Source: an uncultured Candidatus Poseidoniales archaeon
Lineage (GTDB): Archaea; Thermoplasmatota; Poseidoniia; Poseidoniales; Poseidoniaceae
NCBI GenBank assembly: GCA_905182125.1
Contig: CAJJAV010000009.1
Coordinates: 1 to 64,000, forward strand
Direction of reading: 5' to 3'
DNA: 64,000 nt
Made by a program: the position numbers and the translations under genes
Shown: piece by piece, positions 6,067-7,779 of the stretch
How positions within the stretch are numbered: position 1 is the first letter of the stretch
Layout: each line of letters begins with the position of its first letter
Notes under the pieces: generated by a model
What the model saw: only the letters and a program-made list of their open reading frames with translations
What the model was told of the DNA's origin: nothing
Databases searched by the model: none

Positions 6067-6738
6067 ATGGGTCGTCGTCGTGAAGAAAAAGTGGACGAGG
6101 AAGAACTCGCCCGGCTTGAATCGCCAGAGGGCTCCTCGGGTGGAAGGATTCGAGTCAAGATGCCAAATCTCAGGGTGAACGAAATGTTTGCTCTTGCAGA
6201 ACAGATCCTTGGTGGACGACGTGTTACAGTCCTGTGTGCCGATGGTGAAACCCGTATGGCACGAATTCCTGGAAAGATGCGCCGTCGTCAATGGGTTCGC
6301 GAAGGCGATTTGATCATTGTCTGGCCGTGGGACTTCCAAGATGCGAAGGCTGACGTCAAGCACCGCTACACCAAAACACAGGCAATGTACCTCTCTCGAA
6401 AGGGCGTTCTCCCTCCAGATGTCGATATCTTTGGCATGAACACCGCTGTTGATGAAGATGATGATCACGATGACTTGTTTGGCATCATGGAAGAAGAAGA
6501 GGATCTCTTCGGCGCTGCTGATGAGCCTGAAGAAGATGATGACGACGATTTGTTTGGCGATGCCGATGAAGCCGTTGTCAGCGATGATGCTGAAGCAACG
6601 GAAGAAGCCACTGAAGAGGCGGCAGAAACCGAAGAAAAGCCCGCTGAAGAACCGTTTGTACCCGTTGAAGAATACCCTTCTGAAGAGGAAGAATCAACCG
6701 ACGAAGAAGACGAAGATTTGGAAGATCTCTTTGGCTGA
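6067..6738 (+). CDS. eif1A: Translation initiation factor aIF-1A with long acidic DLFG-repeat tail
   Basis: Archaeal homologue of eIF1A, which occupies the A site of the small subunit during initiation. The S1/OB-like core is at residues 25-110 (GGRIRVKMPNLRVNEMFA, RMARIPGKMRRRQWVREGDL, VWPWDFQDAKADVKHRYTK). Archaeal family members usually stop soon after this, at roughly 100-115 residues. This one is 223 residues, with a tail of Asp and Glu carrying four DLFG motifs (residues 136, 146, 161, 220) and the C-terminus DLEDLFG. That end matches the L-x-x-L-F-G pattern of the archaeal ribosomal stalk protein aP1, which binds translation GTPases. A TATA-like CATAAAG lies about 35 bases upstream. 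Confidence 0.93.
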   Translation: MGRRREEKVDEEELARLESPEGSSGGRIRVKMPNLRVNEMFALAEQILGGRRVTVLCADGETRMARIPGKMRRRQWVREGDLIIVWPWDFQDAKADVKHRYTKTQAMYLSRKGVLPPDVDIFGMNTAVDEDDDHDDLFGIMEEEEDLFGAADEPEEDDDDDLFGDADEAVVSDDAEATEEATEEAAETEEKPAEEPFVPVEEYPSEEEESTDEEDEDLEDLFG

Positions 6739-6774: not shown

Positions 6775-7779
6775 ATGGTCAAAGACAACTGGGACGAACT
6801 GCACGACACCAAACACAACCGTTTCAACCGACGCAGTCGGAAATCGAAAGGCGGTCCCTCTTCAAAATCACGCAACCTCGATGATGAGTACGCAGAGTCT
6901 GAAGAAGATAAGTTTCTCAGCAACCTCGCTTCCAAACAGAGCACCTATGGGTGGATGAAAGAAGCTCGATACAAGCGGATGTTCCGCGACATCGAAACGA
7001 AAATCCAAGGAGCCATGGGAACGGGAACGTTCGATTGGGTCGATCGTCGCGTCTTTGACCAGGTCTTTGACCGCCTCACCTTGATGTCGCTGTATAAACT
7101 GATGAAAACAGGCGTCATCGATACCCTTGACTATCCAATCGCAAGGGGGAAAGAAGCGCACGTTTTCCACGGTACCAACATTGACGGTGGATCTGTTGCT
7201 GTGAAAATCTTTCACACATCAAATGCCGTTTTCAAGAACCTCGTGCAGTACATCGAAGGCGATCCAAGGTTCGGTGGCCTTCGCCGCAGGCACCGGGATC
7301 TGGTTGACATTTGGGTTCGAAAAGAACACAGGAACCTCTCCCGTTTGTCCCGTTGGGGTTTGAACGTGCCCAAACCGTTAGGCATCCACAAGAACGTCTT
7401 GGTGATGGACTACCTCGGTCATGAAACCGGTTCCTCTCCGAAGTTAAGAGAAGTTCAGATCGATGAGCCACAAGAGGTGTTTGATGATCTGCTGGAATTC
7501 CTTGCCGTCGCCTGGCAAAAAAGCAACCTCGTACACGCTGATTTCTCTCCGTTTAACATTCTGTGGCACCAAGGTCGTGCCGTCGTGATCGATGTTGGTC
7601 AGGCTGTGGTCCAAGGCCACCCAAAGGCGGAAGAGTTCCTGGTTCGTGACGTTACACGCCTTGTTGAATGGGGCGTAAAAAACGGTCTGGAAGTGACCCT
7701 TGCTGAAACAATGTATGAGGTGCTCAACATGAACCTCGATCACGTTGAACAAATCGTGTATGATGACGAAGAAGAGTAA
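6775..7779 (+). CDS. rio1: Rio1-family atypical serine kinase
   Basis: Atypical protein kinase of late small-subunit ribosome maturation, 334 residues. The order is a basic N-terminus (residues 1-35), the RIO nucleotide loop ARGKEAHVFHG (123-133), catalytic lysine in VAVKIF (K144), the Rio1 block NAVFKNLVQYIEGDPRF, the catalytic loop LVHADFSPFNIL (D256, N261) and metal-binding VIDVGQAV (D273). It starts 36 bases after the aIF-1A stop in the same direction and ends flush against the convergent KH-domain gene. The eIF1A-Rio1-KH grouping is common in archaea and links initiation with 40S-like subunit assembly. Confidence 0.95.
   Translation: MVKDNWDELHDTKHNRFNRRSRKSKGGPSSKSRNLDDEYAESEEDKFLSNLASKQSTYGWMKEARYKRMFRDIETKIQGAMGTGTFDWVDRRVFDQVFDRLTLMSLYKLMKTGVIDTLDYPIARGKEAHVFHGTNIDGGSVAVKIFHTSNAVFKNLVQYIEGDPRFGGLRRRHRDLVDIWVRKEHRNLSRLSRWGLNVPKPLGIHKNVLVMDYLGHETGSSPKLREVQIDEPQEVFDDLLEFLAVAWQKSNLVHADFSPFNILWHQGRAVVIDVGQAVVQGHPKAEEFLVRDVTRLVEWGVKNGLEVTLAETMYEVLNMNLDHVEQIVYDDEEE

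Follow-up and report, generated by a model that had tools for sequence, protein, structure and literature searches.

Archaeal translation initiation factor 1A (aIF1A) has been described as having no acidic C-terminal extension (PMC6412873, PMC7531240), and reviews name the missing extension among the reasons for doubting a contact between archaeal aIF1A and aIF5B. In eukaryotes the C-terminal tail of eIF1A binds eIF5B and is required for efficient subunit joining (PMC7531240; PMC6122471). The window analysed here, a stretch of DNA taken at its full length of 64,000 nucleotides, encodes an aIF1A with a long acidic tail, the end of which resembles the C-terminus of the ribosomal stalk. Is this tail peculiar to one protein or conserved among its relatives, and what might it bind?

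The named close relatives of the window DNA are Candidatus Poseidoniales and Poseidoniaceae (marine group II). The protein of interest (Table 1) matched the PF01176 (eIF-1a) profile over residues 38-100 with 68.6 bits against a gathering cut-off of 30.2, and its best PDB match was archaeal IF1A 1jt8 (1.5e-26). An eIF-1a/IF-1 OB domain scoring above the curated cut-off identifies it as archaeal translation initiation factor 1A. This was its sole Pfam match; the stalk domain PF00428 was not matched. It was also the one eIF-1a family member found in the window's genome, which is 82% complete. Past the neighbouring RIO-family kinase gene lies a KH-domain protein gene on the opposite strand. Shine-Dalgarno signal is scarce in the window, with a 5-base upstream match in 5 of 30 genes versus 3.4 after shuffling, the start codons being unrefined.

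Table 1. Coordinates of the aIF1A gene, its tail motifs and the adjoining gene in the window.
Feature	Position	Strand	Basis or remark
aIF1A gene, 223 aa	6067..6738	+	ORF; PF01176; best PDB match
OB-fold core of aIF1A (Pfam eIF-1a match)	6178..6366	+	Profile search
Acidic C-terminal tail, residues 124-223	6436..6735	+	Begins after the conserved ...VDIFG closing the archaeal core; modelled as coil, at low confidence
Internal DLFG motif 1, residues 136-139 (HDDLFG)	6472..6483	+	Sequence
Internal DLFG motif 2, residues 146-149 (EEDLFG)	6502..6513	+	Sequence
Internal DLFG motif 3, residues 161-164 (DDDLFG)	6547..6558	+	Sequence
Terminal motif DLEDLFG, residues 217-223	6715..6735	+	Conserved element: acidic run, then hydrophobic-[DE]-x-[LFM]-F-[GA]
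RIO-family kinase gene (context only)	6775..7779	+	PF01163, 7.3e-50; starts 36 bases downstream of aIF1A, same strand

The tail comprises 100 residues, is acidic and ends EDLEDLFG. Structure prediction placed no helix or strand after residue 111, a result that at a mean pLDDT of 50.6 is usable only as a tail without predicted structure. An earlier note on this DNA had reported an acidic extension carrying four DLFG motifs and ending DLEDLFG. Both observations were confirmed, the motifs being three internal and one terminal; only the interval given for the extension (6448-6738) needs correction, as it begins four residues inside the tail. The DLFG repeats are encoded by differing synonymous codons, and a recent tandem duplication of DLFG units was ruled out, the corresponding DNA tandem repeat being absent there.

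To follow the tail among relatives, aIF1A was sampled from genomes of the same genus and order, from other genera of the family, from the sister order and the phylum, and from named genome records. The 114 distinct Poseidoniales tails ranged from 41 to 122 residues, and 112 of them ended in h-x-x-[LFMIV]-F (h, hydrophobic) with up to three residues permitted after the Phe, counts that refer to sequences related by descent and hence not to independent events. Of the two exceptions, one (L257) seems to result from a frameshift. Among 1,000 composition-preserving shuffles such ends averaged 0.74, with a maximum of 4. The commonest ends were DIDSFFG, DIDSLFG, DIDALFA, EINDLFG and DLEDLFG. Counting from the tail end, position -2 was Phe in 112 of 114 tails, positions -3 and -6 were hydrophobic in 98 and 99%, position -5 was acidic in 85%, and positions -7 to -13 were mostly Asp. 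The residues seen were I, L or V at -6, L, F or M at -3, F at -2 and G or A at -1. A free C-terminal Gly is dispensable, since part of the order carries A, D or E at -1 and PA follows FG in certain tails.

When 109 sequences were compared codon by codon, in pairs sharing at least 60% identity across their last 20 residues, pN/pS was 0.12 for the last six codons versus about 0.4-0.6 at codons -20 to -15, and 0 at the Phe codon; synonymous sites were saturated in this comparison. Nearly all tails retain the extreme end; the rest of their length changed freely. Internal xhF[GAS] motifs averaged 1.84 per tail versus 0.06 in shuffled tails, and were absent from 47 of the 114, including all 17 tails ending SFFG. 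Conservation among relatives, on which the earlier note had let its proposal depend, therefore extends across the order. Its fourfold DLFG arrangement holds for the window and is elsewhere an elaboration of part of the lineage, the general feature being the terminal motif alone.

The aIF1A of the sister order (L134-L138) stops at IPEILDIY, with no tail found, and the more distant Thermoplasmatota proteins examined stop at or shortly past the core, with no acidic h-x-x-h-F tail. None of 20 cases from other Thermoplasmatota chosen for long open frames had the tail; their extra length was N-terminal. The tail is therefore a Poseidoniales trait within a sample confined to the phylum Thermoplasmatota.

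How specific is the terminal pattern? Across 12 genomes the strict form [DE]h[DE]xhFG-stop occurred in ten places, eight of which were aIF1A. D-[L/F]-F-G-stop was present in three places of the window's genome, namely aIF1A, the stalk protein aP0 and one apparently antisense in another gene, and aP0 was the only other gene found there with a DLFG end. The loose form h-x-x-[LF]-F-G-stop was near background level genome-wide and so says little by itself. Besides the 131 C-termini with an h-x-x-h-F end in the examined loci, all from aIF1A and the stalk genes on whose account these loci had been chosen, 32 other acidic C-termini were present, and none of them ended this way. A generic acidic tail of the marine proteome was ruled out by these 32 C-termini and by the near confinement of the strict pattern to aIF1A. 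As a separate observation, a 384-aa protein with a weak HEAT-repeat match (L293 366-1520 (+), G074:C1:453458-454609) ends DDDDEEFSGLGSLFG, its last seven residues being those of aP1 with an acidic run before them; no relative was found in 18 other genomes of the class.

The earlier note took the tail for a mimic of the stalk C-terminus, a reading that comparison with aP1 and aP0 (PF00428) from the same genomes partly supports. In nearly all cases aP1 ends G-F-[DE]-G-L-G-S-L-F-G, and aP0 mostly ends GLGDLFG, each preceded by an acidic run; the stalk genes of the window's genome lie elsewhere, on contig C20. The aIF1A tail likewise has an acidic run followed by hydrophobic-x-x-L-F-G at its extreme C-terminus, and in a C-terminal alignment its hydrophobic residues coincide with the L, L and F of the stalk. 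Strict L-x-x-L-F-G is confined to part of the aIF1A tails, for example the DLEDLFG of the window, whereas the hydrophobic pattern is that of the 112. In contrast to the stalk proteins, aIF1A has no stalk N-terminal domain, its end has neither the GLG glycines nor the GF[DE] lead-in with the preceding Phe, and F at -3 and A, D or E at -1 are tolerated. We looked for co-variation of the two ends (SFFG versus SLFG) in the same genomes and did not find it: the 17 aIF1A tails end SFFG while the stalk in such genomes keeps SLFG, and therefore the two ends do not co-vary. Strict mimicry is disfavoured by the unchanged stalk of the SFFG group, the variable -1 residue, the PA added to certain tails and the missing glycines. 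In Pyrococcus horikoshii aP1, deletion of L106-F107-G108 disrupted aEF1A binding, and the conserved Phe of the stalk is surrounded by hydrophobic residues in its complexes with aEF1A, aEF2, aIF5B and ABCE1 (PMC6791870).

The aIF5B proteins of these genomes were also aligned. The Poseidoniales C-terminus is of the archaeal type (...HRKxxxFWG), as in relatives with a tailless aIF1A, and a loss of this type, looked for in the alignment, was not found. A structure model of Poseidoniales aIF5B contains two C-terminal helices in domain IV and does not settle the question of an aIF1A site. Several further features were seen in this protein. About six extra residues (GSERQA-type) stand just before the switch-1 region in Poseidoniales aIF5B (alignment A4, columns 26-31, for example L172); neither the sister order nor, with few exceptions, the other aligned Thermoplasmatota have them, a distribution matching that of the aIF1A tail. 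The aIF5B of the window's genome (L172, G000:C12) has a Cys/His-rich, zinc-knuckle-like insertion of about 30 residues between domains, around MCSKCSEVFPRVQFKDHTKKGSC, which is shared by the window's genus and one neighbouring genus and missing in the other Poseidoniales aligned. The same genome holds a second aIF5B-like region split over several frames (G000:C11:10944-12834), which may be a broken copy or reflect sequencing errors or contamination. The only aIF5B found in genome G003 (L173, G003:C5:161674-163599) is strongly divergent, matching in two pieces of 292.9 and 121.3 bits, below the family cut-off.

We propose, with about an even chance of being right, that late in initiation the tail serves as a flexible arm to which a translation GTPase docks, most probably aIF5B; partner, pocket and initiation step we infer from established stalk and eIF1A biology. 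Poseidoniales aIF1A would have gained a disordered acidic arm, the extreme C-terminus of which forms a docking peptide, hydrophobic-[DE]-x-[LFM]-F-[GA]. From an OB domain lodged in the small-subunit A site, the arm would extend outward and its terminal peptide could capture a translation GTPase, with aIF5B as prime candidate, given that aIF1A and aIF5B cooperate at subunit joining. The docking site would be a hydrophobic pocket like the one that accommodates the L-x-x-L-F peptide of the stalk. Charge and reach of the acidic run may aid docking, and internal DLFG repeats could add avidity in part of the order. Capture of aIF5B would be followed by subunit joining, after which aIF1A and aIF5B would both leave.

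The same two proteins might instead meet in the eukaryotic manner, the tail end binding aIF5B domain IV as the DIDDI of eIF1A binds the eIF5B C-terminal domain, through a contact that evolved independently and makes the stalk likeness incidental. The layout shared with yeast and human eIF1A points this way, as do the five tails ending DIDDLFG and the identity of proteins and initiation step with those of eukaryotes. The most constrained residue, however, is the Phe at -2, which DIDDI does not contain, the aIF5B C-terminus is still archaeal-type, and according to a review a supplementary helix of archaeal aIF5B occupies the site where aIF1A would be expected (PMC7531240); we consider this contact rather unlikely. 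Since the archaeal stalk end binds aEF1A, aEF2 and ABCE1 as well as aIF5B (PMC6791870), a look-alike could also bind these factors rather than aIF5B and hand them over or block them around initiation. Such a role appears improbable, as aIF1A departs from the ribosome before elongation (PMC7531240) and its end is no exact copy of the stalk end.

Other explanations give up the GTPase partner altogether. The acidic tail adjoins a basic OB domain and might fold back on its surface, or mimic RNA, with the FG motifs serving that purpose; contact of the eIF1A C-terminus with the ribosome-binding surface of the same protein has been reported (PMC6122471), the eIF1A tail carries scanning enhancers (PMC6412873), and the scarce Shine-Dalgarno signal of the window would fit. 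The probability of this explanation is low in our view, for it does not account for a fixed extreme end beside a remainder that is free, internal FG motifs included. Docking of a partner outside the translation GTPases is the reading that we hold least probable. In its DIDSFFG form the tail end is similar to the hydrophobic half of a PCNA-binding box, but the Gln of PCNA boxes is missing, no other protein class with the strict end recurred in the 12 genomes, and beyond this translation factor the motif is shared, loosely, by the stalk alone.

How does this aIF1A compare with known systems? Its components are of known kinds: aIF1A itself, an acidic tail and an L-x-x-L-F peptide. What appears to be new is their combination on archaeal aIF1A, and we found no description of a conserved, order-wide stalk-like tail on this factor in the open-licence literature. 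As in other archaeal aIF1A (PF01176; PDB 4mno, 5jb3, 1jt8), there is an OB core with a C-terminal helix, and a single copy was found; the difference is the acidic tail, present in nearly all Poseidoniales sampled. This marine order breaks the rule of an aIF1A without acidic extension, and its tail end is conserved like a binding peptide, which turns direct contact between aIF1A and a GTPase in archaea into a question testable with peptides.

The tail layout resembles eukaryotic eIF1A at least as much as the stalk. Human and yeast eIF1A, the ends of which (DDDEDIDDI and EELDIDDI) were confirmed against PDB chains, share in outline an FG motif after the OB core, an acidic linker and a hydrophobic-acidic end. 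An acidic tail follows the OB core in Poseidoniales too, its disorder being indicated by the low-confidence model alone. Five Poseidoniales tails end DIDDLFG, and the Poseidoniales pattern resembles DIDDI in part, having the I-D-x-hydrophobic core but adding F-G. In contrast to the eukaryotic tail, that of Poseidoniales ends F-G or F-A with a near-invariant Phe, is up to about three times longer and in part of the order carries DLFG repeats. The tail is absent from sister archaeal lineages, so we infer convergence with eukaryotic eIF1A. It is possible, though the balance leans against the full claim, that a eukaryote-like aIF1A C-tail for direct recruitment of aIF5B arose independently in this order, with the stalk L-x-x-L-F grip replacing DIDDI, and gave the small subunit a second, initiation-specific GTPase-catching arm. 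The Poseidoniales tail suggests that the link known from eIF1A and eIF5B could arise more than once.
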